Assembly: GCA_003313425.1 (NCBI GenBank)
Contig: NHZP01000067.1
Coordinates: forward strand, 152,898 to 216,897
DNA from: Pseudopyrenochaeta lycopersici
Taxonomy: Eukaryota > Ascomycota > Dothideomycetes > Pleosporales > Pseudopyrenochaetaceae
Direction: 5' to 3'
DNA: 64,000 bases
Part shown: positions 8,550 through 61,073 of the stretch, in pieces
How the letters are laid out: every line of letters begins with the position of its first letter
How positions within the stretch are numbered: the first letter of the stretch is position 1
Notes under the pieces: model-generated
The model's database searches: none
Told to the model about the DNA's origin: nothing
Seen by the model: only the letters and a program-made list of their open reading frames with translations
Translations under genes and position numbers: made by a program

Positions 8550-9127
8550 ATAGGGCTGGAGCAGAGTTAAGTATTACTAGATCGTTAAGTAATAATCTAG
8601 TAAAAAAGGCGCGTATATAGGACGATTGAGTAGGGCCTTGACGAGCTGCTTGGCGCTGTAGGAACTGTAGAGACACTGGCTATAACAAAACAACATGTAG
8701 AAAACGTCTAGACGATTCAGAAGAGCTAGAGGCAAGCACTTATTGCACAGTTAGTCTTGTTGATAGTGATAGTTCTAATAATGAATGAGCTGAGTTGGTA
8801 GCGCCAAGCATTTTCGGTGGATTCGGTGGTGCTTAACGTTATAGCTTTAAAGTCGCAGAAAGTTGGGGAAGTGGCCGACTCGCTTATAAAACACGTTATG
8901 CGTATTTGCATGTACATGGGTATTCAATTATGCCGACTGCAGGCGCGTGTATGCGATATTAGCCGAGATCACGTGGAACTCTTCCGAATATCAAAGGTAG
9001 ACGATCAAGCCAAACCCAATGTGACTCACACCATATACTACTCAACATCTCTAAAACCAACCAGTTAAATACGCCAAAAATCCACATATGTATCAACTCA
9101 TTGCCGAAACATACGCACTCTCTCAAA
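8550..9127. other. Intergenic DNA at the edge of the gene island
   Basis: Base composition becomes mixed and the TA-rich bias stops near 8570. No open frame here resembles a known protein; short ones on both strands look like chance frames. The last 100-200 bases would contain the promoter and 5' leader of the GNAT gene, but I see no distinctive motif. Confidence 0.4.
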
Positions 9128-9868
9128 ATGCCGCTCACACTCCACCCCATGACTCCCTCAGACGGCCTGTCCTTTACTCGCATCCGCGCTGCAGCATGGG
9201 CGGGCCCGACCTACGATATGTTGCACACAGGACCGCTCTCCGAATCCTCTATCCGCGGGCTCGCAGAAAATAATAGTAGGGAGGTTGGAACGCCGAACAT
9301 GTGGCACTGGAAGATTGTAGACACAGACATTCCGCCGAGCGAGGACGATCCGAAGGACGGCGGGGGAAGAACGATTGCGGTTGCAGTGTGGAGTTTGTGT
9401 AATGCAGACGAGAAAGAGAGTAATGATGATGTTGCAAAGGATGTTCATTCCCACGCAGGTAATGAAAAAGATCCTAAAAACTCGCAAGAGAAAGAGCCAG
9501 AGCCAGAGAAAAGAGAAGCCCAACTCTTCGTTCCACCCGAACTCCGCCAAGACGTCCGCACCGCACTCATCGCCCCCTTCCAACCCACCCGTCTCTCCGT
9601 AATGGGCACGTCTACCCCCTACCTCATGCTCAACATGCTGGCTACGCATCCATCGCACCAGACGCGCGGCGCGGGGACACTATTGCTGGATTGGGGTTTG
9701 CGGAAAGCGGATCGGGAGGGTTTGAGGATCTATGTCGATTCGAAGAAGATGGCGAGAACGGTGTACGAGAGGAGGGGGTTTAGGCTTGTGAGGGAGATGG
9801 TGTTTGATAGGGGGGCTTGGGGTGGGGAGGGTGTGGATTGGCATGGGTGTATGGTTAGGGAGCGGTGA
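9128..9868 (+). CDS. GNAT-family N-acetyltransferase
   Basis: Single-exon gene of about 246 residues. GNAT proteins transfer an acetyl group from acetyl-CoA to an amine; the substrate cannot be told here. The C-terminal half shows the acetyl-CoA-binding block: a beta strand (YLMLNMLATHPSHQ), then the loop QTRGAGT matching Q/R-x-x-G-x-G/A, then a helix, then VYERRGFRLV, typical of the final GNAT strand. The N-terminus (LTLHPMTPSDGLSFTRI) is also family-like. A charged Glu/Lys-rich insertion (about residues 95-130) separates the halves. I chose the ATG at 9128 because the fold starts there; an in-frame ATG at 9101 would add nine residues. It stands alone between repeats, close to RIPped DNA, yet its frame is intact. 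Confidence 0.85.
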   Translation: MPLTLHPMTPSDGLSFTRIRAAAWAGPTYDMLHTGPLSESSIRGLAENNSREVGTPNMWHWKIVDTDIPPSEDDPKDGGGRTIAVAVWSLCNADEKESNDDVAKDVHSHAGNEKDPKNSQEKEPEPEKREAQLFVPPELRQDVRTALIAPFQPTRLSVMGTSTPYLMLNMLATHPSHQTRGAGTLLLDWGLRKADREGLRIYVDSKKMARTVYERRGFRLVREMVFDRGAWGGEGVDWHGCMVRER

Positions 9869-37863: not shown

Positions 37864-39780
37864 GTATTACTATATAAGTTAAGCTAGTATTTACTACTTT
37901 TTTCTTAAAAGTACTAAAATTAATATCTTAAGATATAACCTTATTAAGGGTAAAATACGCTTTAGTTAAGCTTTTTGGTAATATTCTAATATTTTAAAAG
38001 TTTAGAAGATCCATAGCTAGGCTTATAGCTACCCTACTATATCTATCTTCTATAATTATATTTATATTAGGACTAACTACCTTTTATTACTACGTAGCTA
38101 GTAGCTTAAGCTTTTAATATTAAGTAAGCCTTAAGTCTACTTTATTAAACTTCTCTAGATATACTACTAATACTAGCTAATCTAGAATATTATTAGTAAC
38201 TTTATAATACTCTTAAATTTTCTATTTTAGCTAATAAAGCTGTAGTATTTAAGGTATAGTTCTTTAGATTTATCCTAACCTCTTATGTAAAGGACTAAAA
38301 TAGTAAATCTTATATCTAACTTCCTTATTCTACTTAAAGCTAATCTAACTAAGATATAAAAGTAGCTAATATAGCTTATATTCTCTAGTAATATAACTAA
38401 GGAGGTTATATATATTATAAGTAATATTTATAGCCTTAGATAGTAATTACGCCTTACTAAAGATTTAAGTTATAAGGAGCTATTATTAGATAAGAGCTAT
38501 TATTCTTTTCTAATAGTAGCTACTTAGTATTATTTCTTAAGATAACTTAGCTAATAAAGTACGTATACGTAGCTAGATTCTTTAGAATCTAACTAAGCTT
38601 AAGATAAACTATTATTTTATTAACCTTAGCTAGACTAATTATCTAGTTACTAAGAGCTAAAATAAGGTCTTAAACCTCTAGATCTATACTAGGTAGAAGA
38701 GTAGGCCTAGCTTTCTCTTAAACCTTACTTTTCTTATACTTATTAACTACGTCTTTTAGCTACTTTACTATTAATATTTTCTTTTCTTAATTAAGGATTT
38801 AGTATATAAGCTTAGCCTCTCTTTCTATATAGCTAAAGGATATCTATTTTATTCTCTCTCCTTAGTAGTATACGCGCTTAAGATATATATAAATCTTCTT
38901 AATATTAAAACTCTCTAACTTATCTAGAATTAGCTCTTTATATATATAGATAAAGATTATATCTTAGTCTTCTCTTAGAAAGCCTCTAGTAAAGAAGAAG
39001 CTAGCCTCTATCTTATATAGCTAGCCTATCTTAATATAAGCGTTACTATATACTATAAAGTTAGTTAAATACTTAGATAGTTTTAAGAATTTTCTTAATA
39101 TCTTAGAAATATAGGTCTCTAGGAACGCTCGCGTTCTTATACGTTAAGCTATATCTTAATTATACTAATACTCTTTTATTACTTTTTAAAGCTTCTTCTA
39201 GTCTAGTACTCTATATAGCCTTATTTTTTTAATAAAGCTTTTATATATAGTATTATAGAAATCTAAAAGAATTCTTATCTTTTAATAGTTAATATAGCTA
39301 CTATTATCTACCTAGTAATTAAAGTTATCTAGGAACTTAGTAATATCCTTTTTTATAAATAGAAAGTCTCTCTTAGCTAGCCTTATAGGCATAAGTACTT
39401 TACTAGTATCTATAGTATATTTCTTAATAACTTTAATAGTAGGCGTAAGATCTAATCTAAATAATAGTAAATCTAGTATTAATTTAGCTATAAGGATAAC
39501 TAAAGGCTAAATCCTAAATAGGCTGCTACAGCCCTTTAGTATAACTAAATAAGGAGACTATAACTACTAGGTAGTTCCTTACTAACACTACTAATTAACT
39601 AAAATCTAATACTATACTACTTCTAAATTATTTCTTAATTATTTGTAGCTATTTTTATTTTTATTTTCTAATATCTTATTCTTATTCTTATTATTTTTCT
39701 ACTACTAAGTTAACTTCTACTTATCTTATAGGAAGTCTTAATTTATTATAGTAAGGTAATAAGGATATAGCCTTAATAGA
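37864..39780. repeat. AT-rich RIP-decayed repeat, possibly coding on the minus strand
   Basis: TA-rich with few GC dinucleotides. A minus-strand frame at about 38700-39130 is coherent for some 100 codons with TAG-type stops (it contains FFFTRGFLRED), which suggests a dead transposon protein, but I cannot assign a family. No LTR pair or inverted terminal repeat was recognised. Confidence 0.4.
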
Positions 39781-39824
39781 GCTAGTCCTTATTAACTCTT
39801 AGCTCTAAAAATATAAAGGAGGTA

Positions 39825-39985
39825 GCTATAACAGAGATATCCCTCTTAAAGGTTCTAAAGGCTAGCTATAATAGTACCATCCCTCTTAAAGGCTCTAAAG
39901 GCTAGCTATAACAGCGCTATTCTTCTTAAAAGTTCTAAAGGCTAGCTATAATAGCGCTATCCCTCTTAAAGGTTTATTAGGGTTA
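39825..39985. repeat. Tandem repeat of about 40 bp, four units
   Basis: Units of the form GGCTAGCTATAACAG-x-CCCTCTTAAAGG-TTCTAAA recur four times from about 39830 to 39980, varying mainly by C/T changes (AACAG or AATAG, CCCTC or TTCTT). This is a minisatellite now degraded by RIP-type mutation. No gene is associated. Confidence 0.75.
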
Positions 39986-41446
39986 AACAGACACCTAGCT
40001 CTTTCTAAGTAATTCTATAATCTCTATATTATAATATAGTGCTCTTATTTTTATATTTTTAATATTAATAATTTAATACTATATAGGCTCTTTCTACTCT
40101 TAGTAGCTATAGCCTAACTAGAATAGACTATTATACCTCTTAGGCTTTACTATAATTTATAAAGTTATTAAGGTAGTTTAGTATAATCTTATAGTTCTAG
40201 TATTATAAATAAGAGGTAATACTAGAATTAAATGTGCGTAAATAATAGGAGCAGCCCTACCTATATAGTCTGCTAGAAACAAAGGTAAGTATAGAGCCTA
40301 ATTAAAAGTAATATGAAAAATAGTCTAAAATCTTATTAGATTAATATAGCTAATACACTAGCTACTTTGTAAAATCTTAGTTTTAAAGTAAATTATTATA
40401 GTATGTAGTGTATAATGTTAAGATCTCTCGCATCTCTAAGGAAACCTATTATCACCTAATTGCTTAGGTACCCTGTGCAACGGCACACTAGTAAAGCTAC
40501 ATAAAAGATAATAACTATTTCTAATATAGTTAAGAAAAAGTATTACTAAAAGATAAGTAATAAGTTATTATAGTTTCTTATCATAGTTATAAGCTTATTA
40601 TTTAGAGTAGTAGTAATTTAAGAGATTAAAAAATACTTAAAGTTTGCTAATCTACTTATTTATAAATTTCTATTCTCTTACTTTATTTATAAAATACTTT
40701 AAGAGTTTTATATAAAACTATACTTCTAAAGTAGTATAATTAAGGCTTTTTAAAAGTTAGTTAAGTTATTTCTAGTTAGTTATTTTAAAAGTAACTATTA
40801 CTTTAATATTTTTATATTATATATACTAATTTTTAGTAGACTATATAATAAATATAATCTATATAAAGAGAGTTACTATTTAGTATAAGAATTTTATATT
40901 AGTAAAGTAATACTATAATAAGTTTCTACTAAATCCCTTTTAATAAGTAGTAGTTTTCTTTAAGTAGTAGTCTTCTTTAAGTAGTAAATTTATTTAGTAG
41001 TAGCTTTCTCTAAGTAGTTATAATATATAAATTATAAACTATAATAGTTCTTAACTAATATAGTAACTATTAAACTATAATAATTAGCCATAGTAAATAT
41101 ATAACCCTAATTAGTTAGTAGTAACTTTAATATAAAAAATATAATTACTTAGACTTAAGCTAACCTTACCCTAATAACTCTAGCCCTAACCTTAACCTAT
41201 TTATAGTAACCTTAACTTATACCTATTACTAGCGTATAAAAATAGGTATAGAGCTGGGTTAGGTACGGGTCTTATGTAATTAAACCTAACCTAACCCTAA
41301 CCGATACCTATTTGCTACCCTATCTACTTCTATTAAGAAAGCCTATATTTTGTTTAGCTTTTATTATACTCTAATAAATATAGTAAAGGATAAATATACT
41401 TCTCTTATAGCTGCGTATATATTATTTATTCCTCTATCTACTTTAA
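39986..41446. repeat. AT-rich tract with a telomere-like patch
   Basis: RIP-decayed sequence with no readable frame. A less mutated patch lies at 40425-40500. At about 41160-41310 there are irregular runs of CCTAAC/CCCTAA-type words (for example AACCTAACCTAACCCTAACC), resembling degenerate fungal telomere repeats. They are not regular enough to be called a telomere. Confidence 0.4.
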
Positions 41447-41569
41447 TGTTGGCGGGCAGCAGGCAGGAGGAACTAGGTTGATTCCTATCAAATGAGACAC
41501 AAGGGAACTATATACCCTGTGGATGCTTATATAACAGAGCACGTGAGGAGCTAACCATGTTAGCTAACA
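41447..41569. mobile_element. Short solo LTR or TRIM-like element, 123 bp
   Basis: A small GC-richer block from TGTTGGCGGG to TTAGCTAACA with a perfect 5-bp duplication TTTAA (41442-41446 and 41570-41574). TG...CA ends and a 5-bp duplication fit an LTR; 123 bp is very short, so a TRIM-type element or a truncated LTR is possible. It contains a short palindrome (GCTAACCATGTTAGC). It is unmutated while its flanks are RIPped. Confidence 0.7.
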
Positions 41570-41863
41570 TTTAATATAATACTTTATTTTTCTAAGTATA
41601 CTTACTTTCTTACGTATATTAAATTAAGCTGTTTAGTATAAAGGTAGTGCCTAATGTAAAGAAAGGCCTTATAAAGTATAATTAATCTATAGATTTAAGG
41701 TAAGTACAAATACTTTACTAGTACTTTAATACTATAGTATATAGAATATAAGTCTTAATAGACTTAAAACTGTCTTAATTTTTAAGTAATCTTACTCTCT
41801 TTCTTTAGAGCGTAGCCTAGTCTTTATATCTACGGACTTAACTTTAGCTCTTTAGACTAGCTA

Positions 41864-43213
41864 CAGTGCCCTTCCAAAAGTTTTCGCCGCGCTAGTGCGA
41901 CGCGCTCTATCACAACAACACTACCTTAACTTTGCAGTATTATAATTATGCTACTATAACGCTAAATTCTTTAAGAAATAGACTAAAATACGCGCAGACG
42001 TCCTAATTTAATAGTCTAGCAGCAGAATTAAATTATTAGTATGCTGCATAGTAGTGCTTCAGTTACTAAAGTTACTAACGCGTTTAGCCGCAGTAAACGC
42101 AGTATACGCGATATTAGGAAAAGATATTAATAAACTAGCAAAATAATAGATAAACCTTATAGTAGTAGACTACCTATACTATTACTTTATTAGAAGAATA
42201 TTATCTATTATAAAGCACGCGCATAGCTAAAAATTACGTATAAAGAGCTAGCTAAAGAGGCAGTAGTTATAAATCTAGATAGCACTACTTTAAAGCTACC
42301 TAGCTATTCTATATTATAGTAGTATCTTAAAAGACAAGGCCTTACTAAATCTCCTTATAAAAAGCGTCTAAAGCTTAACAAATTACGTGCGTTATAGTGG
42401 CTTAAGTTCTATAGAGAGTACTCTTCTTTCCTATAGTATTAACGCACTATACACTTCTTAGATAAGTACTCCTTTTAAAAGGGCTTAGGGTAAATATAAG
42501 AGTAGGTATTTTATAATTTATAAGAGAAATAAAAGATAATAATACTTTAAACTTATAGCTATAGTAAGAAGGTAGTATAGATAGTATAAGGTTTAATATA
42601 GCTAGATAAACGTAAGCGTGCGCAGAGGAGCCCTCTAGTTATAATAGAGCGCGATCTTAATACTCTAAACTATAGATACTCTACTAAAAGTTATATTAAG
42701 GCTTTAAAGAAAGGCCTCTTATAATTATAGCATTATTTACAGCTTTTTATATAAGATAACGCGCGCGTATATACAGCTACAGCTATAAGGAGATTTCTAG
42801 CTAAGCACTATATTAGTATAGTTAACTAGCTACCCTACTTACCTAATCTTAACCTAATTAAGTACCTCTAGTAGTATCTTAAAAAGCTTATATATAAATA
42901 CTATCCTTAGTATAATAATTATAGTTAAGCTATAGAGGAGTAAGATAGCTTTTACGCTACATTAAAAAGTTGCTAGTATTATATACTAGCCAGCCTAATT
43001 CAGCGCCTCATCATAAGCATGCCACAACGAATTAATACATGCAAGAAAGCGCGAGGGTGGCAAACGAAATATTAAACCTGTGCGTAACTGCTGCTTTAAA
43101 AAAATTTAAATTATATTATATATTAGCTGAGATTTATAGTGTTGAAGTTTTGTGCCCATGTGCTGGTGAGGGTGGCTCGTGCGTGCGCGGCGAGAACTTT
43201 TGGAAGGGCACTG
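41864..43213 (+). mobile_element. Tc1/mariner transposon copy 1
   Basis: A 1350-bp element with inverted terminal repeats (CAGTGCCCTTCCAAAAGTTT at the left, its near-complement at the right ending GGAAGGGCACTG) flanked by TA on both sides (41862-41863 and 43214-43215), the mariner target duplication. Inside is a plus-strand transposase broken by RIP. The last 200 bp are less mutated, close to the gene island. Copies 2 and 3 of the same family lie at 59720-61071 and 61941-62721. Confidence 0.93.
41990..43110 (+). pseudogene. Tc1/mariner transposase, RIP-broken
   Basis: The plus-strand frame shows family features through the stops. An FLDKYSFxKGLG block near 42455-42490 corresponds to the first catalytic Asp (D-E normally, D-K here). 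Near 42810-42890, VNQLPYLPNLNLIKYLQQYLKK corresponds to the YSPDLNPIEHLWxxLKK block holding the last acidic residue. The enzyme would cut and paste DNA at TA sites. Stops and the Glu-to-Lys change make it inactive. The frame at 43039-43254 belongs to its 3' end plus the terminal repeat and is not a separate gene. Confidence 0.85.
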
Positions 43214-43215
43214 TA

Positions 43216-46735: not shown

Positions 46736-47295
46736 GTCAATCTCGTCCTTGACATCGGACATGAGGATGAAAGCTGTTACAACACCCTTGCCCTGAGCGG
46801 TTGTGGCTTTGGCACAGATCTTGCCGTACCAGACGTAGTGAGTGGAAGCCAGCAGTGTTCCAACTGTGCCCCTGTGCCATTGTTAAGAGAGTCGACTTCT
46901 TGCCGCTGCCGGGATCGGTATACATGGCGGGCATGCCCTGCGACTGCCAGTCGACCTTGGAGGCGTCGCCGAGGCCCTTATCGATGCTCTGGACGTTGCT
47001 GAGCGAATCGAGCAAGTATGTGCTGGACTTGCACACAGGGCTTGGTACGCAGGAATCGAAAGAGTGCGACATGAGCGCGTCACAACCGCCGAGACAGAAA
47101 GTGCCGACACCGCAGTCACTGTATACTGCGAGGTTGTCAGCAGCGCTACATGGTAGGCGAGGGGTGGGGTGACGCACGCGAGCAGCATGGTGTCTCTGAT
47201 GGTCAGTGGCTGTCCGCTGAGCATTTGGCGCCGGCATACGCAGTACCAGCGAGGGTTGCTGCAGCGAAGGCAGCGGAGAGGGCTCCGCGAACTAT
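46736..47295 (-). pseudogene. GH16 CRH-type (Crf1/Utr2-like) cell-wall transglycosylase, truncated
   Basis: Minus-strand remnant of a chitin-beta-glucan cross-linking enzyme. From 47295 it reads IVRGALSAAFAAATLAGTAY (signal peptide), then KCSADSH-stop-PSETPCCS, an apparent intron (GTGCGT...CTCGCAG), then CGVGTFCLGGCD, CVPSPVC, LGDASKVDWQSQGMPAMYTD, LLTMAQG. A one-base insertion in GGGG then shifts frame; the other frame continues GTVGTLLASTHYVWYGKICA and ends at DVKDEIDFEWVGVD, just short of the rest of the catalytic GH16 domain. The start ATG is lost (ATA or ATC), there is one nonsense codon, one frameshift and a truncated 3' end. It must be dead. It joins a pogo fragment at about 46735. Confidence 0.85.
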
Positions 47296-47728: not shown

Positions 47729-49662
47729 CTAAGCTACAGACAAATTAGACGTGCTTTCTGTTACCTTGACAAACATGTTAGACTCCAGGAAGACGGCATA
47801 GCTTTCGACGTCGCACGGTTTGATTGGACTAATCAGCTGGAGGTCAAAGGTACAGAACACCTTGTAAGAAACGAAAGAGTTAGCCCGAACGACACAGTAG
47901 GACCAAAACAGCACACCAAAAACCCCGAGACCACGTAAATTTTTAATGAACAGCGGGGATAGAGCCTGGCAGGAGGGTAAGGGAGCTCACCTCAAAGACA
48001 GTCTTGCTTAGCTTCATGAACGCGATTCTCCTCCCAACGCACTGCCACTGGCCCGAGCCAAAGGCGAACTCGACGTTCCGCTCCATGTCGCGACGGCGCG
48101 GCGGGTCCTCCAGCTCGGTGAATCGCTCCGGTCGGAACATGTCGGCGTCTGATCCGAACAAGGAGCGTGATCGCAGCAGCGCCCCCGTGTTCGAGCAGAT
48201 GTTAGTCCCGCCCGGCACCCACTGTCCACCCAGCGTGTCGCCACCCACGGGGACGACTTTGGGGAGCAGGCCGAGTACTGGAGGCCGCACTGCGGAGACC
48301 AACAGTCAGTAGGAGTTATTTTCTTTTCTGTCTTTTCTGTCTGAGATCTGAATTGGTGAAGGAAAATAGGGAACACATCTTAGTCCAGAATACTACTATA
48401 TGAAAGAATAAAACATAATGACTCTCAATGTTACTCACTGCGGAGGCCCTCGTAGACCACGGCTTGCAAGTACGGTAGCTTCAGCGCCTGATCCATCTGA
48501 ATAGGGCTGGTGACCGTGTTCTTATCCAGAGCCGCCTTGATCTCGGCCTTGAGCTTGACGTACACTCGCGGCGTGGTCATAGTGTGCACTAAAATAGAGC
48601 GGATTGCCGATGCGGTGCTCTCGGCCCCGGCGACGATCATGAAAAGGCCCTCCACCTCACACTCCTGCTGGTTCAGGCCGTGGTGGATGAAGGAGCCCTA
48701 AATGCGCAGTCAACGTGTGTGTGTTGGGGCGCAGTTTGACAGAGCTCTGATCGTAACAGTGAGTGGTACTTACTAGCATATCCATCACCTGCTCTGCATC
48801 GGGACTAAATCGCTTACTGACATGGTGCTCCGCTACACTGAAGAGCATTTGGTAAGCCTTCTGCTCAGGCAGCACAGAGATTGAGCCAACTCAGGAAACA
48901 GACAGAAACGCGGAAGCGTGGGCCTACTCACCCCATCAGTGCGCCAAAACCAGTCTTGTCCCGGGGACTGGGCCCAAGTAACTGGAGGAACAGCTTGGAG
49001 AACAGTATCTTACGCGTCCAAGAAACGTCGGCCACCGCAGACATACTCGGCCACAGAACCCGGAGGCTTCCCAAGAAGCCATAGAGATCGGTCTCCTGAA
49101 CCAAGTAGCCGAACGCTTCTCCGAACGCGAGGCGCGTGATAACATCCATGGTGAAGAAGGCCGTCATCTCGGCGAGCTCTAGATGCCGACCAGACCGGGC
49201 GTACCTGTCCCTCATGACGCTGAGCAACGTACTAAGTTGCTCGTCTATGCCGATCTCCATGTCGAGAATCTCGCGCCCGGTGTAGCCGTGGGCGACACGG
49301 GACTTGTACTTGGCGTGAGCTGTAGGCTGTTGAAGTGAGAACATGTTGTCATAGTACGGATTGATGCGACCACCCGTGTACCAAGTGCCGCGGTTGTAGC
49401 CGCTGCGCTCCTTGTTAATCCTGCGGATTATCTCCGGGTCACCCGTGATAAGCTCGTTGGGCCCGATCCGAACCAGCTTGTGCTTGTGATGAAGCTCGCG
49501 ATGCACCCAGTACTGGCGCCCACTGTATGTAGTCTTGGCTAGCCATAGATACGAGAAGTTGGCCAGCCAGGATGCTGCGGGAAACTTGCGAAGCTTCCAC
49601 CATGCGGCAACACTACTAAATAAATACCAAATGGCCAGACAGATGAGAGCCACCAAGAGCAT
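47729..49662 (-). CDS. Cytochrome P450 monooxygenase (pisatin-demethylase-like group)
   Basis: Five exons: 49662-48932, 48837-48774, 48697-48439, 48289-47991, 47860-47729, with GT-AG introns of 76-149 bp, giving 494 residues. The start at 49662 puts the membrane anchor (MLLVALICLAIWYLFSSVAA) at the N-terminus, as in microsomal P450s; an in-frame ATG at 49749 would add 29 residues. Landmarks: I-helix AGAEST at 288-293, ExxR as EGLR at 348-351, PERF at 405-408, heme loop FGSGQWQCVG at 428-437 with Cys435 as thiolate ligand. It should hydroxylate a small lipophilic molecule at the ER using NADPH from the P450 reductase. It is transcribed away from the ABA3-like gene, sharing about 860 bp, which suggests co-regulation and a terpenoid substrate. 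The subfamily (for example ABA1 or ABA2) cannot be settled by eye. Confidence 0.9.
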
Positions 49663-50524
49663 GTTGATCTTGATTTCTAGCAAACTGGTGCTGATACTGC
49701 GTAGTGATGCAACCTTGAGAAACCGACGATTGGAGCTTGCTTTATCCAAGGTAGATAGGACAGCTAGTGAGAAGAGGAATGGTTTAATGAAGCTTGCTTG
49801 ATTGTTTAAGCCTGTGCGGAAGACTACATATAACAGCCGAGGTCACGTGTCCTTAGCAGTGATTGCATCTCCGACAGTTACACAGGGAACCAAAAAACCG
49901 AATTTGAACTTGGTGAACATTTCCATAAGACTTCATGCCAATGCAAGATACCCCGCCACGTAGTAGGCGCCATAGTGCAACACGTTGCCCAGGGCGAACC
50001 TCCGTGGGGTGATCTGATAGACGCCCTGTTGCGCTATGGCGTGGCAGCGCTGGCAGCCCTAGTGTCATGCCGACATAGCGCCGACGTAGTGCCGGCGTCA
50101 GCCCGTAGTTTGGCTGGAAGTCTTCTGTATCTATCCTAAATTCAACACGCTGTATGCGCAGTGTTATACATATAGTAGATGTAGTGCGCTGCAGAGCTAT
50201 TTTTAGTCTTGGTTTTTGCCGAGAAAAATAATTCTGACCCAAAAGGCGCTATGTGCCGCCGTAACTATTGTCTTGTTCAGGTTCCTCCGTACAATCACCC
50301 CTGTCGAGATCATGCACGCGTCGTATAATCCACACAGGCAAGACATCCTGCGAGCCAGACGGATGATGGGCCAACGCTGGTTGCTGAAAGACCAACTGTG
50401 GTTCTCACTCATCTAGCAGCTTTCTTCTTAAATTCCAGTTCACTCCTCTCACTCGTATCAACCCCTTTTCCTGTACAGAGCAACACAAAACTGGCCTTGT
50501 CTAAGCCCACCTGCCCTAGAAACC
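49663..50524. promoter_or_regulatory. Shared divergent intergenic region, P450 and ABA3-like
   Basis: The two genes point away from each other, so both promoters must lie in this 862-bp gap. It is unusually GC-rich at about 49950-50110, where GGCGCCATAGTGCAAC is partly complementary to GTTGCGCTATGGCG about 60 bp on. No single regulatory motif can be named. The open frames at 49853-50416 are unsupported. Confidence 0.45.
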
Positions 50525-51769
50525 ATGTCTATGGCCCCCAAGTCCCGCGATGCGTGGTACTACCCGCCTGATGTCGCTCACGACCTCGATGATGAGACTT
50601 GTCTTTCTGAAGAGTCAAAGCAGGAAGTACTTGCCTGCGCGTATGAGTATACCCGCTGCGTGATCCCCCACTACACCAATTGGAAGCGATATATTGGCTT
50701 CTGTCGCTGCATGATCATAGGTATCATTGCCGAGTTCAGGGGTGACCTGGTAGACGAAAATGGAGGGGACACGATCGCTGGCTACTCGCTGGACGGTGTG
50801 CTGGCGGAGCTCTTTGAAGGCACCCCGGGCCACGCCTTGATGGCACGGGAGTACAAGTCGTTTCTGATTCCTGCTGCGGACAAGTCTAGCGAGCGGCGGC
50901 ACGGCGAGTTATTCCGGCGTTACGTCAATGCGCTGGCCTCGTCGCCTCGCACGTGGTTCCGCATGCGCGACTGCGACGCCCTTTCGCGCTTCACTATTTT
51001 TTCGGCCCTGGCGTGTAACAATATCGACACTGTGCCGACGGATGATGAGTGTGAGCTGCTAAGCGAGATTGGTATTTATCTTTACGACGCTGTGGCCTTC
51101 TATAAGCACCGTGGCGAGGGCGAGACAAACAATACCTTTGCCTACGTGCCGTGGGATATGCGTATCGACAGCTTCCGCATTGCCCGCGAGATGTTATGGG
51201 CTTTGGACGCATATTATGTTCGGCGCCCCGAGGGGTCAATCTTGATCAACTTCGTCCGTATCGTCGGCGGGCCTGTTCATATGATGATGCGTCGCTACCG
51301 TTTCGTGGAGGAGGAGTGTACCATCGGCAGGATTGAGACGGACGATATCATCGAGCTGGCCCGCCGCAAGGTCAAGCTCTGGAACCGTGTTGACGTGGCA
51401 AACAATCCCCAGGAGAATGAGAAAATTGGTCCTCTCGAGGCGCCAGGGGTTGAGCGCTATCAGGCTTTGCTGAAGCGCCACGAGGAGTGGATGTTCCCAG
51501 GGCTTCCAGAATACTTCGAGGACAGCGGGCAATGTGAAAGTTGTGTCTATCGCCTCTCATACGGGTCTGAAGTCAGACATACTTTCGGCGGCGTCCAATT
51601 ATGCCAGGGATGTATTGAGACGTTTCGCGCATAGTAAGTAAGTCCAGGAATTAATTTTGTATGGGGAATTACTAAGTCTTGCTGCAGTGTTGAAAAGCTG
51701 CCTGAGAGGGTTCGAGCCGTTTGGCCTAACATCGTCCTTAAAACGCCATCGCCGCAGACAATTGTTTAA
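50525..51769 (+). CDS. ABA3: ABA3-type sesquiterpene synthase (alpha-ionylideneethane synthase family)
   Basis: Two exons, 50525-51633 and 51688-51769, with a 54-bp GT-AG intron, giving 396 residues. The protein shows the words of the Botrytis ABA3 family in order: WYYPPD (11-16), EYTRCVIPHYTNW, GIIAEFRGD, LFEGTPGH, ERRHGELFRRYVNALA, WFRMRDCDALSRF, FYKHRGEGETN, GGPVHMMMRRYRFVEE. Two CxxC pairs follow (337/340 and 360/363), possibly a metal site. BcABA3 converts farnesyl diphosphate to an ionylideneethane, the first step of fungal abscisic acid synthesis, and lacks the classical DDxxD motif; none is seen here. The second exon (RAYVEKLPERVRAVWPNI) restores a C-terminal helix like that of the family; without splicing the frame stops at 51634. 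The divergent P450 fits a pathway partner. Whether the product is ABA or a related ionylidene compound is unknown. Confidence 0.87.
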
Positions 51770-52324
51770 AACGCTACTTAAACTAATAGGAATGTCTCTG
51801 AACTTGAGGCATATCTTATCAATTGTCTAGACTCACGTTTACAGCTGCGGAGGCAGGAAGATTAGCAAACATACGAGGTTAAAATCAGGATCACCATCGT
51901 TATTCGTTTACTAGAATTATGCAGAATGGGGCTATTCATCAATGTTTTCTGGAGACTGCTGTAAGCGATGTGCTTATCCTCTAGGATAGACCTAACTCTG
52001 TGACTCTGGGATTCAGACATAATGCAGTTTCTATTTTGAAGGTTTTGACTAGCTTCAAGAATACAATTTAAGACCTTTGGCCAGTTTTGAGAGCGTCGGC
52101 CATCTCAAAAAGTATCCAATTAGGCCAGCTGGCGACTCAATCACTTGCCGCTACACAGAGATGCTGGTTTATAATTTCCAGCATAAAACTATGGCCGAGG
52201 TAACTGGGAGCAATGAGTCTTTGATAATTATTTGTGCACCTGATGAAGCCCTTTCTGCGACAGGTCTTCCACTGTTTAAGCAGCACATCCATGATCTGCT
52301 TCATTTGTTAGAGCACTTAGCTGG
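51770..52324. other. Intergenic, between ABA3-like gene and patatin remnant
   Basis: No recognised gene. A plus-strand 100-codon frame (52077-52379) has no family words I know and runs into the patatin remnant on the other strand; it could be the tail of an older decayed gene. Composition is intermediate, with AT-rich patches. Confidence 0.35.
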
Positions 52325-53560
52325 TTATGTTCTCTCTAACATATCTTGTTCCCTGATACGCTCGCCAACACCGTTGTAGTTCGTGAAAATGCGGCAGGAT
52401 AGCTTCTCGCCAACAGTGGCTATGGGTAAACCGGCACGAGTACCCGTAGTAGTTGCGTGCGAATAATCTAGAACACCTTGGTTGGCTCCAAATACTTGTT
52501 TCAACACCCCTTTGATGTTTTCGGGCGGGTAAAGGCCATCTGCAAGATACGATATCAGGAGCTCTAAAATACGTGGAACGAAGGGAAGGTTTAAGACTTC
52601 TGACACTACAATGCTAGCTTTGCGAGCTTTTTAAACATGTCTGTAGAGTCGTCAATAGACCAACCGTTAATAAACATAGCCAGGACGATCAACCCTCCTA
52701 CAATTATTAGCGAGTATATTTAAAGCCTATAAAAGTAACTTGCCTGAACTAATGCTAAAAGCAACCTTAAAGAAATTTGAAATTGAATCAATATACTAAT
52801 CTAACCTTGAATTCTTTTCATCAGCTACACTAGTACTAAACTTCGGGCTCCTCCGCCATCAATGCAGAGAACTCCCACACCAGCGGTTGGAGGATAAACC
52901 TTTACAGTTAGCTCTTCAGGCATATTTACTCCACAAAGAAGGCAATGGCGCAATTTGAATATCCAAGGACCATCTACGCAGTATTCTAGAACACAGCTCT
53001 CGCAGAATTCTAGAACACAGCTCTCGCAGATAGTATGTCCGCAAGGCAAGGCATACTGGGGTCGCCAGCGTAAGCCGCAAAGGCATACACTGCCACTCTT
53101 AATGCCACGCCAGCTAGTCCTAGCTTAACGAAGATTCTTCTCGTGAGTCTTTAACGCCGACATGCAGTCCTAGGTAAGTTCCTCCAGATATAGATGGAGG
53201 CGTTTCTCGATCAGGTTGATGAATCCACTTCGCAGCATCACATCTTTAGAATCTTTAAAAGCGATTACACTATCCTTGCTCTTATAAGAATGGCTTTATA
53301 AAAACTTCGAAAACCTTTCTAGGAGGGAATACGACGTTGTGATTATTTTCTCTATATTTAGGAGTAGGGCAGACTTACGATGAGCATCGGGTAGATAATT
53401 ACTTAAAAGAAGGCTAGATGCAATAATAGGAACTATAAATTCAGTCAGCTTAACCGGGGCCTTTACGAGTTTGATGAAATTGGACAAATGCTCCTCGAGA
53501 TCAAGCGCCACAGGGTTCACGACTAATTTCTAAAAGGAGGCTACTGTGCGAAGCACCTTA
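52325..53560 (-). pseudogene. Patatin-like phospholipase with RING-like N-terminus, broken
   Basis: Minus-strand remnant of a fungal patatin-domain lipid acyl hydrolase. In order it has an N-terminal helical part (53520-53296, LEEHLSNFIKLVKAPVKLTE), a zinc-ring-like Cys cluster (about 53050-52940: LPCGHTICESC, with LRHCLLCG), then the patatin oxyanion loop GVLCIDGGGARSLV, then FFKVAFSISSG, and after an apparent intron GGLIVLAMFINGWSIDD. The GxSxG serine thus survives as SISSG with its leading Gly replaced. It continues with SHATTTGTRAGLPIATVGEK and SCRIFTNYNGVGER and then stops. Several TAG/TAA stops, frameshifts, a 24-bp tandem duplication inside the ring (52981-53035), and a missing C-terminal half including the catalytic Asp show loss of function. 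Confidence 0.8.
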
Positions 53561-53729
53561 GGCTTTTCGGTTCTGCGCGACTTGGTAGTACTGCTCGAGA
53601 AGACTTCAGAGGTCGAGTTCAGGCCCGGCTTGGAAAAGAGACAAGTGCCTCTGTCCAAAGTTAAAGGAGTCTCAAGACGACGACGAGACGTCCAGCACAT
53701 ATGACAAGAGGCACATATACAACTGCTGC

Positions 53730-54190
53730 GAGAAGAATTGTTATAACAAATACGGCTTTGCTAAACTGTGCTTTAAATGCAATGAGTAGATCTTTTCAGA
53801 GAAGGAATAGAGCGTTCACTATTACTTCCTAATTTCCTTCAACCCCCTTGTTTATAGTAAAGTCCTCGCAACTCTAGGATGCTGTCCCTGCTGTCTTAGA
53901 GACGAGGGATTACTACCTAAGAAGTAGATGTATTAGTATTTAAACTAAACTCAATAGCTAGTTTACTTCTAGAAACACATTAAAGAGCTAGAGAACTGTA
54001 AGAGAAGAGGCAAACGCATGGTAACATGCCCTTACCCTAGACCGCGTTGTTTAAAATGTTTCTACTCTATTCTATATTTACAGTTCTATCTAGAAGATAT
54101 CTACAGTATTTCTATAAGGAAGGAGTTAAAGGCGAAGAAGAGGGTAAGTATATAAATTCTACTAAGCAAGAAACAACACGCAGTTAATAA
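53730..54190 (+). pseudogene. Zinc-finger fragment like the tail of fungal FluG/DUF3435-type proteins
   Basis: A plus-strand frame with TAG stops at likely Trp or Gln positions reads YGFAKLCFKCNE, then LGCCPCCLRDEGLLPKK, then FxKHIKELENCKRRGKRMVT, CPYPRPRC, and LQFYLEDIYSI. Paired Cys followed by His-containing helices (CPxC...H...CPxPxC...LxxHLxDxH) is what I know from the C-termini of FluG/DUF3435 proteins and related fungal C2H2 proteins, but the match is from memory and partial. DUF3435 domains are also found in Starship tyrosine recombinases; no recombinase domain is visible here. It is a fragment. Confidence 0.4.
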
Positions 54191-55509
54191 AGAGCGCTTA
54201 GAATCTTACTACTATATTAATAATACAGCAAAAACAGTAAAGGCTAGTTCGTGGAGTATATTTAAAAACATTGTCTAGCGGTACAACGCCTTCTTGCCCC
54301 TTAAAAAAGTAGTACCTAGAGTAAGAAAGAAGAGTCTAGTTCTAAAACGCGGCTGTTATCCAGTTCTAGTGATGCTAAAGATGATCTAGCATCTAACCTC
54401 AACGTGCTTGTATCTTAACAAGTTCGTTTGTATCCAGTGGTCGAGACGCGCACTGTGTAAGGCAGGATCTGGACCGACCTCCTTGTCTATAAACGTCTTA
54501 GAGCTGCGCAATTAGTAAGTTTTAGCTATTTTTTTGCAATTGCAAAGTCCCTTTTTAGCGCTTAGTATAGCCGCCCTACATTCTCTTCGTTCCTTATCTT
54601 CTTAACGGCAACGAAGCTGGTCTATTTGCTTGTGATGTGATGGTTGACCTCAAAGTCTGTGAAGATGGCAAAGAATTGACAGGCGATGGAACTGTGGGAT
54701 TTGACGCGAGATTACAAGCAGGTAAGTCCTCTTTTGGCTACTGTCAATATGGGCATGCACTGGCGAAAACGTGAAACCCCCCTGTAACGGATGTCCTTCA
54801 TGGACATGGGATTCAACGGAGTCGGAGGTGTATTGGCCGCCCAAACCTTCAACTCAACCTCTTTGTCAAGTCGAAAGTGCTGATGTGACAAAAGACAGCC
54901 TAGACCCGTTCGGAACTTAAAGAGTCCCCAGCTCCTCTTCACCGGTTCTACCGTGTCCTACTCTTAATCCCATGCGCCCAAAGTTTACAAATTTTTCGGA
55001 GGATAGGTGTGGCAAGGACAAATTGGGATTTAAGCCCAGGCCATTTTGGTGGCTTTTCGATACATGCTTCTACAATTGTCTAAAATTTAGGATCTACGTT
55101 GCCGAGGGTACAAGCCCACAATCTAGCGCTTGTTCCTAGAGTATAGCTAAAAGTGTTATAAACTTTGGTAGTAGAGAAATCTAAAAATCCCAAGCTTTAC
55201 TTCTACAGGGAAGATGTTTCGAAGCAGGTCCAATGGACTGGTATTAAGATCCCTTTTGCTATACTTGCTTTTCAGCCATCCCAATGAATAGGGGCCCTAA
55301 CGTGACAAAATAATAGAGAATCTGAGTTAGCGTGAACCACAAGTGGGAATGCACAAGAATAACTGAACACCATAACTAGCTGTTATAGCATAGAGTAACT
55401 TGAATTAATCTTCTACTCTCGTGTATCCACTATTATAAATAGCAATTGTGTCCAGTAATTTAAGCGGTACTAATTATTATTATTACTTAACTTGAAATGA
55501 CTCAATGTC
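54191..55509. other. Decayed mixed-composition region, no assigned gene
   Basis: Patches of moderate GC (54560-54960) alternate with AT-rich DNA. Minus-strand frames at 54650-54844 and 54712-54942 and plus-strand words such as GDGTVGFDARLQA look like remains of a gene, but I cannot name it. The remainder up to 55509 is the 3' flank of the HET gene. Confidence 0.35.
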
Positions 55510-57321: not shown

Positions 57322-58028
57322 AAAATGATTGTGGCTGTTCGAGAAGTATAAAGTTGGAGATTTTCAAATAATATGATTAATGCGTTCCCCTAAGATAAGG
57401 GCTATATAGACGTGGCAACAACACCCTACAAGGGAGCTCGTATTTTTTGAACGCTAGGGTCCCCGTAAATATTGGTGGTAGCCCAGGGCTCAAACAAAAC
57501 AAGCTTCTTTGTACACAAGGGGCCGTTGACATGCACATTTTAGTGCTAGCGCCATTATGTGCTGAGAAAAGCTGAATGCCTGAGCTGAATGCCTGAGCTG
57601 AATGCCTGAGCTGAATGCCTGAGCTGAATGCCTGAGCTGAATGCCTGAGCTGAATGCCTGAGCTGAATGCCTGACGTGCACCAATCATAATATCTATCAA
57701 TTTTAAGTCTAGCATGATTGGTTTAAGGTACGTTGGCATACAATATAGAGTTTCTCTGAAAACCACTAGCCAGCTTCGAGCTGCTTACAAACCAAGGCTG
57801 TGTATTAACAAGACTACGTCGTGACTGCAACAGCTAAAGATAAGTCAATTCGTGTAGATTGCTAGGAAGCAGTAAGTAGGCTGCCTTGATCTACTATAGT
57901 ACAGGGCTAAAGTAGTGGGCATAGTCAGAGCGTACAGGGTTTTACAGCTTGGAAATTGCAGTTAGCTAAGCTGAGTTAACATACGCACGATTCTTTTTTT
58001 TTTAAAAATAAATTTAATATATTGTATA
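57322..58028. other. Upstream flank of the HET gene
   Basis: Mixed-composition DNA holding the presumed HET promoter and a minisatellite (listed separately). Open frames at 57377-57766 come from the 13-bp repeat read in several frames. AT-rich repeat DNA begins near 57990. Confidence 0.4.
57571..57674. repeat. 13-bp minisatellite, 8 perfect copies
   Basis: GCTGAATGCCTGA is repeated eight times without any difference (57571-57674). It lies about 250 bp upstream of the HET start codon. Perfect identity suggests recent or ongoing expansion. Confidence 0.97.
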
Positions 58029-58410
58029 ACGTGTCTCACAAGCGAGCGCCGCAGTCTAAAATACACCAAAAATCTTAAAAGTTCGTCTCCTAGATCTTAA
58101 CATTAGTAATACTTAATAATCTAAAAACTTAAAGATAGCTTTTTATACTTATATATAGATTATTTCTTAAGTTATAACAGTATATATTAAGTAATTCTTA
58201 AGATATGTTAAAATTATTAGAAGGTAAGCATAAAAATACTATATCTATAGAACGTTTTAGTATAAGAAGTTAGCAAATACTTTAAAATTAGTATAAGAAG
58301 CTATCTTTAAGTTTGTAGAGTATTTAATATTGCTAACGTTAAGATATAGGAGACAATCTTTTAAGATTTTTGGTATATTTTGGACTGCGGCGCTCGCTTG
58401 TGAGACACGT
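58029..58410. mobile_element. Foldback MITE, 382 bp
   Basis: The two ends are inverted copies: ACGTGTCTCACAAGCGAGCG at the left pairs with CGCTCGCTTGTGAGACACGT at the right, and complementarity continues through AAAATCTTAAAA-type sequence and AAAGATAGCTT toward the middle, so most of the element forms a hairpin. TA flanks both ends (58027-58028 and 58411-58412), as for Tc1/mariner and pogo-type elements. There is no coding capacity. The outer about 30 bp of each arm are spared from RIP while the inner part is AT-rich. Confidence 0.88.
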
Positions 58411-58412
58411 TA

Positions 58413-59717: not shown

Positions 59718-59719
59718 TA

Positions 59720-61071
59720 CAGTGACCCCGCAAAAGTTTCCGCCGCGCATGCACGAGCCACCCTCTCAAGCACATGTACACCAAACTTCAACACCATATA
59801 TCTTAGCCAAAATATTATATAATTAATTATTTTTTTGGGTTAAGAGTTGCATAGATGTTTAATATTTTGTTTGCCATCCTCGTGCCTTTTTACATGCAGT
59901 AATTCGTTGTCGCATACTCAAGATAAGGCGCTTAATGAGCTTAGCTAGTATGCGCCGCCAGCACTCTTTCAATGCGCTGCAAAAGCCATCCCACTCTTCT
60001 ATAGCTTAGCTATAATTATTATATTATAGATAGAATTTGTACATGCGCTTCTTCAGGTACTACCAGAGGTGCTTAATTGGGTTAAGATCAGGTGAGTATA
60101 CTAGCTATTTGATGGTGGTGATGTGGTGCTCGCGCAGAAACTCACGCGTCGCTGTAGCTGTGTGTATGCGCGCGTTATCCTGCATAAAAAGCTGAGAACA
60201 ACGCTAAGATGGTAGAAGCCCTTTAGTTAAGGCCTTAATATAACTTTTAGCGGAGTACCTATACTTTAGAGCATCGAAATTACGCTCCATTATAACTAGA
60301 GGACTTCTCCAGGCACACCTACGTTCATCCAACCATATTAAACCCCATACTATTTATAACACCTTTTTACCGCAGCTATAGGTTTAGAGTATTATTATCT
60401 TCCATTTCTCTTATAAATTTTAAAAAACCTACTCTTAGTTTTGCCCTGAGCCCTTCTAAACTAAGCATTCGTTAGAGAACTTAAGCGTGCGACAATACCA
60501 CGGGAATTAAGAGTACTCCTTGCAGAACTTAAGGCGCCTTAACGCATCCCCGCGATAGAGCTTAGGACGCTTTTTATAAGGAGATTTAGTAAGGCCTTAT
60601 CTTTTAAGGTATTAGGATAGTGTGCTAGAGCTAGGCGGCTTTGAAGAGGTGCCATCTGGATTCACAACCACTGCCACTTCAGCTAGCTCTTTGTACTTAA
60701 TTTTTAGCTGCGCACGTGCTTTGCGATAGATAATCTTCTTTTAATAAAGCGATAGTATAGGTGGCCGGCCGCTGCGAGGTTTATCTGCAGTTGTGCCTGT
60801 TTAGTGATATTTCTTCCTAAGGTCGCGTATAGCGCGTTCACTCCGGCCATACGCGTCAGCAACTTAAGCAACTGTAGAACTACTATGCAGCATCCTAATA
60901 ATTTGATCTCGCTGCTAGACTGTTAAATTAGGGCCTCTGCGCGTATTTTAGTCTATTTCTTGTAAAATTTAGCGACGTGGTGGCATAGTTATGATACTTG
61001 AAGGTTGAGAAGGAGATGTTGTGAGGGAACGCGTCGCGACTAGTGTAGCGGAAACTTTTGCGGGGTCACTG
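59720..61071 (-). mobile_element. Tc1/mariner transposon copy 2
   Basis: A 1352-bp element with inverted ends CAGTGACCCCGCAAAAGTTT and its near-complement (GGAAACTTTTGCGGGGTCACTG), with TA on both sides (59718-59719 and 61072-61073). It is similar along its length to 41864-43213 but in opposite orientation and less mutated, with more GC-containing codons retained. Confidence 0.93.
59870..60990 (-). pseudogene. Tc1/mariner transposase, lightly RIPped
   Basis: Minus-strand frame. Near 60070-60130 it reads VYSPDLNPIKHLWxYLKKRM, the conserved YSPDLNPIEHLW block, with Glu changed to Lys and Trp to stop (TGG to TAG). It continues WDGFCSALKECWRRI and ends with ACKKARGWQTKY, typical of fungal mariner C-termini. 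Fewer stops than in copy 1, but several TAG codons remain, so the enzyme is inactive. Confidence 0.85.
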
Positions 61072-61073
61072 TA

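Follow-up and report, generated by a model that had tools for sequence, protein, structure and literature searches.

A divergent ABA1-type P450 and ABA3-type synthase gene pair of probable Sordariomycete origin in Pseudopyrenochaeta lycopersici

The right end of contig C67 (NHZP01000067.1; 216,897 bp) of Pseudopyrenochaeta lycopersici, whose genome comprises 62.7 Mb in 188 contigs, was analyzed as one stretch of 64,000 nucleotides, which is called the window in the following. It contains two intact, divergently transcribed genes, which code for an ABA1-type cytochrome P450 and an ABA3-family ionylideneethane synthase. Taking all results together, we consider it likely that these genes constitute an ABA1-ABA3 pair for ionylideneacetic acid chemistry, and that both stem from a common Sordariomycete source. 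The likely joint transfer of this unit into a genome that already possessed an ABA3 of its own is the most notable addition to a preliminary description of the same DNA; two further ABA3 copies, one of them decayed, and the inverted nature of the repeat that bounds the locus are also new.

The P450 and synthase genes

The synthase gene is located on the plus strand (50525..51769) and consists of two exons (50525-51633 and 51688-51769), which are separated by a single GT-AG intron of 54 bp. Its reading frame is open, the gene is intact and it codes for 396 residues. The protein is 58% identical to BcABA3 from Botrytis cinerea (E-value 5.5e-144, 97% of the query covered) and matches the chains of solved ABA3 enzymes with an E-value of 2e-148; a PDB profile of its family finds the entry 8zac with an E-value of 4.2e-217. 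These matches place it in the fold of the solved enzymes BcABA3 (8zac), RuABA3 (8zad/8zae), and SkABA3 (8zaf/8zag), in contrast to which it is known from its sequence alone. A Pfam scan assigned no family to it, and a literature search found no paper that names the solved entries or that links BcABA3 to a crystal structure.

All 56 near-invariant positions of the ABA3 family are kept in the window protein, including the C-terminal CxxC...CxxC. Two DDxxE strings occur at residues 173 and 273. Among the 120 relatives listed of 367 (71 of the 120 entered a quick tree), DDxxD/E is found at these columns in just 16 and 8 proteins, and there is therefore no conserved motif. The preliminary description had assigned the 396-residue protein to the ABA3 family; this agrees with its homology to BcABA3 and with the trees, in which it does not cluster outside the family.

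The P450 gene is located on the minus strand (47729..49662). Its five exons (49662-48932, 48837-48774, 48697-48439, 48289-47991, and 47860-47729) are joined by introns that are all of the GT-AG type, and the intact gene codes for 494 residues. The protein matches PF00067 beyond chance (E-value 2e-41) and contains the landmarks AGAEST, EGLR, FRPERF, and the heme motif FGSGQWQCVG. Gene model, Pfam match, and motifs thus agree with the earlier view of a complete, divergent P450 that possesses the landmark residues. It is 62% identical to row P0131 of our alignment, which was identified as BcABA1 because its first seven and last five residues match the translated primers for bcaba1 and because it has 509 residues, as stated for BcABA1; both primers and length are given in PMC4227169. 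In a 72-row tree the window P450 lies within a set of 46 rows that contains BcABA1 (Shimodaira-Hasegawa-like approximate likelihood ratio test, SH-aLRT, 97), apart from other P450s and not in an unrelated clade. It can therefore be specified as ABA1-type. This quick tree includes 56 of the 120 relatives listed (392 in all) and 12 of the 120 matches listed (1179 in all) for a second P450 of this genome, on contig C9. The top five among the 120 relatives are from Diaporthe (82-91% identity).

The 862 bp between the two genes (49663..50524) presumably hold both promoters. The index of repeat-induced point mutation (RIP) is negative in both genes and in this intergenic region. The 4.1 kb that hold both genes occur once in the genome, and the sole other DNA match is one of 66% to an ABA3 paralogue on contig C3.

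ABA1 and ABA3 are linked in many other fungi. Among the 120 matches listed for each gene, the same longest-contig value is reported for ABA3 and ABA1 in at least 13 species, and consecutive locus tags in Gaeumannomyces hyphopodioides add a 14th; neighboring tags were found in five species in all among the matches listed. Species with differing contig values, for example Neoarthrinium, Apiospora arundinis, and Botrytis, were not counted as linked; here, the values perhaps refer to different strains. An ABA1-ABA3 pair on one contig is common and not unusual, and what distinguishes the window locus may be its origin and the lack of ABA2, and apparently of ABA4, beside the pair. In B. cinerea, an ABA1-type gene that also has five exons adjoins the ABA3-type synthase gene, but the bcaba1-4 cluster includes ABA2 and ABA4, neither of which was found in the 64-kb window (ABA4 by a crude scan). 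Furthermore, bcaba3 of strain TB-3-H8 has no intron, whereas the window gene has one. Leptosphaeria maculans (Plenodomus lingam), also a member of the Pleosporales and with AT-rich compartments in its genome, carries ABA1 and ABA3 under neighboring tags (LEMA_P087750/087760). However, these proteins are just 51% and 54% identical to those of the window and belong to separate clades. The closest named relative with both genes on one contig is Diaporthe australafricana (ABA3 82%, P450 88%), a fungus of a different class than the host.

Origin of the pair

In the quick tree, the window ABA3 belongs to a 26-row set (SH-aLRT 100) in which it is accompanied by 11 unnamed and 14 named rows, the latter all from Sordariomycetes. 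A more careful tree of 73 rows, from which the ABA3-like copy on contig C5 was omitted due to its long branch, resolves nested sets of nine (100/100) and 11 rows (100/97). The smaller set contains the window protein, two named, and six unnamed rows; the larger one also contains two named rows, and all named rows are Sordariomycetes. The careful P450 tree has 39 rows; among those of the 72-row tree, unnamed sequences, near-duplicates, long branches, and some others were omitted. In it, the window P450 is joined with four Diaporthe rows (100/100); in a wider set of 14 rows (100/99) the other 13 are all Sordariomycetes. Classes of rows were mostly assigned by genus name, and four taxa (Diaporthe, Paraphoma, Pyrenochaeta, and Neoarthrinium) were looked up.

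The host itself appears to be pleosporalean. The first 16 matches of the C9 P450 have 74-85% identity (84-85% to the nearest), and judging by genus we take all of them to be Pleosporales (Paraphoma was looked up). In the 72-row tree, the C9 P450 is grouped with six pleosporalean rows (SH-aLRT 100), apart from six others. The ABA3 on contig C3 (C3:1445150-1446526, L007:4450-5826; minus strand) keeps all 56 conserved positions and groups with Pyrenochaeta (100/100) in the careful tree; no P450 was detected in the surrounding 30 kb. The trees of both window genes are thus in conflict with the placement of the host and in agreement with each other, as expected for a transfer from Sordariomycetes. 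Forcing the window ABA3 to group with pleosporalean rows (without the Pyrenophora rows P0085 and P0092) lowered the log likelihood by 277 (approximately unbiased test, p 1.8e-49). Forcing the P450 to group with pleosporalean ABA rows (including P0170, labeled as other Dothideomycetes) lowered it by 215 (p 1.9e-113), and grouping the window ABA3 with the C3 copy gave a p value of 0.0017. All three p values are optimistic because the groups were chosen after the quick trees had been seen. Judging from these trees, the pleosporalean genome probably acquired both genes jointly, from a source among the Sordariomycetes.

The late choice of test groups weighs against this interpretation, as do several further points. 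The placement of the host is based on two genes, the C9 P450 and the C3 ABA3, and the 17th match of the former, from Pleurostoma, which we assume to belong to the Sordariomycetes, ties at 74%. The three ABA3 rows that are nearest by tree path are unnamed and may themselves be non-Sordariomycete. The G+C content at third codon positions, which otherwise favors a transfer, is 0.655 for the synthase gene and 0.723 for the P450 gene versus a mean of 0.540 (standard deviation 0.066) in 67 long open reading frames (ORFs) of other loci, but the former value is just 1.7 standard deviations above the mean and is reached by three of the 67 ORFs, and some ORFs of this background were counted twice because loci overlap.

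Contamination is an unlikely source of the pair because a repeat in the right flank recurs on other contigs of the genome, namely with 98-99% identity on C3, C9, and C25 and with 95-99% on many others. Alternatively, the pair could have been inherited vertically and lost in other Pleosporales, or the host could have been misjudged, such that no horizontal transfer took place. The placement of the host by only two genes and the patchy occurrence of ABA3 across classes fit this explanation, but we regard it as quite improbable: both trees reject a grouping with pleosporalean ABA genes, and a paralogue with pleosporalean affinity exists on C3. Moreover, the identities of 82-91% to Sordariomycetes are comparable to the 84-85% between the C9 P450 and its nearest pleosporalean matches and far exceed the 54% and 51% to Plenodomus. 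A joint transfer is thus the preferred reading. Diaporthe and Neoarthrinium belong to different subclasses although their ABA3 proteins are 81% identical, which hints at several transfers. An earlier proposal of horizontal transfer of such genes between plant-associated fungi is found in PMC10482981, where the ABA genes in the ABA-BOT cluster of Colletotrichum tofieldiae are inferred to have moved between fungi. The window pair thus adds another example, in which the unit is smaller and consists of two genes only, whereas the Colletotrichum cluster contains ABA1-3 and BOT genes.

A third ABA3-like copy is located on C5 (L010:4475-5451), divergently to a P450 gene of another group (L010:2607-4133). 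It lacks D188, H195, E198, and R213 (window numbering) among others, as well as the C-terminal cysteine cluster, and is read as decayed because these invariant residues and the cluster are missing.

Chemistry of the pair and the remainder of the pathway

According to PMC6876084, which cites Takino, BcABA3 converts farnesyl diphosphate to alpha-ionylideneethane, BcABA1 produces alpha-ionylideneacetic acid from it, and BcABA2 yields the 1',4'-diol; the same paper states that bcaba1-3 are essential in Botrytis and bcaba4 is not. By orthology, the window synthase would have a helical fold that resembles class I terpene synthases, although its family has no conserved DDxxD motif; it would bind farnesyl diphosphate and form the C15 skeleton of ionylideneethane, presumably as the alpha isomer. 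The P450, encoded divergently from a probably shared promoter region, would oxidize the side chain to ionylideneacetic acid; the double-bond isomer and the oxidation site of the product are predictions. Further conversion to abscisic acid would depend on the functions of ABA2 and ABA4, which were not found in the window. Three points argue against a firm prediction of the product. The locus is known from its genes alone, which establish families and intactness, whereas the reactions are deduced from the Botrytis orthologues. A literature search found no published ABA3 mechanism with which catalytic residues could be compared. Finally, C. tofieldiae possesses ABA1-3, and neither abscisic acid nor precursors were detected in the cultures tested in PMC10482981, whose authors allow for another product.

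A P450 hidden Markov model found only the ABA1-type P450 among the 1161 ORFs of the window and no second P450 (ABA2) beside the pair, in line with the statement of the preliminary description that a single P450 is present. Its statement that a dehydrogenase is absent is less certain: a crude sequence pattern for short-chain dehydrogenases matched the ABA3 ORF alone among the 1161 ORFs, and Pfam detected no such enzyme in the subset that was scanned, which comprised 19 window ORFs besides those of the pair, 17 of them inside the island. None of 360 fetched proteins had the ends of bcaba2 (Bcin08g03840) or the start of bcaba4 (Bcin08g03830) as predicted from published primers.

In the whole genome, at least 94 match places for P450s and at least 19 for short-chain dehydrogenases were found (exon pieces were counted separately). 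Among the matches listed, the closest P450 places outside the window are 41-44% identical to the window P450. The C9 P450 was rejected as ABA2: its family is common in fungi and often named after ABA1 by UniRef, and no listed row is named ABA2. Also rejected were the P450s on C25 (286382-290506), C14 (822346-826494), and C42 (235786-239529, partial), which are three copies of one gene; the C25 copy lies outside the ABA1 clade, as does a P450 at C3:749677 in the 72-row tree. A segmental duplication is suggested by ORFs that adjoin both the C25 and the C14 copy. The P450 beside the third ABA3 copy on C5 contains PF00067, but has just 22-24% identity to the ABA1 group and was set aside as a seed for ABA2 because of this low similarity. 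PF19086, the family of class I terpene synthases, matches the genome at five places, and none of these is on the window contig.

It is possible, with a chance somewhat below even, that other parts of the genome provide the functions of ABA2 and ABA4 and that the fungus makes abscisic acid. The many P450 and dehydrogenase places would allow for this, and so would the dispensability of ABA4 in Botrytis and its location apart from ABA1-3 in Colletotrichum (PMC10482981). On the other hand, the four closest P450 places outside the window seem to represent other families to the extent that they were tested; in the P450 tree, C25 stood for its near-copies on C14 and C42, and ABA2 may still be among the P450s of the genome. 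Rather unlikely is a different ionylidene sesquiterpenoid, with another double-bond isomer or oxidation site. The sequence differences of 42% from BcABA3 and 38% from BcABA1, the separation of the window ABA3 clade from the Botrytis and Plenodomus branches, the culture result for C. tofieldiae, and a gamma-ionylidene route in other fungi (PMC12001456) are consistent with such a product, but all 56 near-invariant positions are kept and the P450 stays within the ABA1 clade. That the pair is a silent relic, its genes being intact but not expressed because AT-rich DNA resembling heterochromatin surrounds them, appears improbable: RIP indices of 0.95 to 1.68 in the flanks and the decayed copy on C5 would fit, but in the pair both frames are open, the introns are canonical, invariant residues are kept, and the RIP index is negative.

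Bacterial ABA3 genes offer a comparison. A profile search of contigs with a bacterial alignment revealed four loci in three genomes, where an earlier scan had found none; SkABA3 is a bacterial ABA3 whose structures are already solved. In Umezawaea, Actinoplanes, and Amorphoplanes, which we take from their genus names to be actinobacterial, a P450 gene is located directly upstream, and its stop codon overlaps a possible ABA3 start codon (L043:6664-9107, L044:5162-7542, and L045:6610-9107). Among themselves, the three P450s share 68-71% identity, but they match the window or Botrytis ABA1 only over about 170-225 residues, with 26-32% identity; on this basis, they are not orthologous to ABA1. A second ABA3 of Umezawaea (L046:6737-9125) has an ORF for a class I terpene synthase (PF19086) upstream. 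Among 395 other sampled genomes of the same phylum none contained ABA3; only the query's own genome did.

A rather unlikely extension is that synthase and P450 form a self-sufficient module, which produces a signal of the ionylideneacetic acid type and not abscisic acid, and which moved from one class of fungi to another, perhaps within a segment that has inverted copies of a transposon at its ends. The overlapping actinobacterial pairs, with a recruited, non-orthologous P450, would be a parallel, and suggest that one oxidizing partner may suffice for the synthase to yield a useful product. A two-gene unit that crosses classes would show how a single step can provide a fungus with hormone-like chemistry, and it makes testable which part of the pathway is its transferable core. 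Removal of ABA genes in C. tofieldiae alters root colonization and plant growth (PMC10482981), and ABA clusters of L. maculans and Zymoseptoria tritici are expressed during infection (PMC7986464 and PMC8939313).

The island and its neighboring genes

The pair, which is present as a single copy, is located in an island inside RIP-affected repeats. The earlier notion of a repeat-bounded island is correct: a dispersed, RIP-affected repeat (41862..43215) ends at 43215, and an inverted, homologous copy (59718..61073) begins at 59718, with 76% identity over 1361 aligned columns. The two copies have the terminus CAGTG and face each other across the island; we presume that the repeat could be the end of a DNA transposon. 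Immediately left of 43216, a stretch of 716 bp has at least 39 long matches with 84-95% identity; 39 of 398 candidates were scored and the window itself was absent from them, such that this listing demonstrates the repeat, while single-copy status is established for the pair. The first 180 bp or so of the right copy recur at 95-99% on other contigs. Over 38000-43000 the RIP index is 1.61; three stretches on the left have values of 1.2-1.7 (up to 1.68), the right flank has 0.95, and 51770-55400 has 0.20. Its values are negative in the ORFs of the two neighboring genes.

These genes were correctly described as coding for an esterase and a HET protein. Pfam matches in the scanned ORFs of the island were a carboxylesterase, a HET domain, and a RING fragment below the Pfam cut-off. 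The carboxylesterase gene (PF00135; 43417..45421, minus strand) is represented by matches in two exon ORFs, its ends being those of the preliminary description; nothing found here links it with the pathway. The HET-domain ORF (PF06985; 55513..57363, minus strand) codes for 617 residues and has 99 match places in the genome including itself, the next best with 32% identity and none above 45% in the stretches listed; it is not thought to take part in the pathway. An ORF at 46740-47291 looks protein-like by eye, yet has no Pfam match.

Within the island, close to its right edge, a perfect 13-bp tandem repeat, AGCTGAATGCCTG, with eight copies (57570-57673) adjoins the HET ORF. An inverted repeat at 58027-58412 has arms of 126 nt that are 90% complementary, and related copies exist on many contigs. 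In the AT-rich left part of the window, a GNAT acetyltransferase ORF (8963-9865) occupies a small patch that is richer in G+C.

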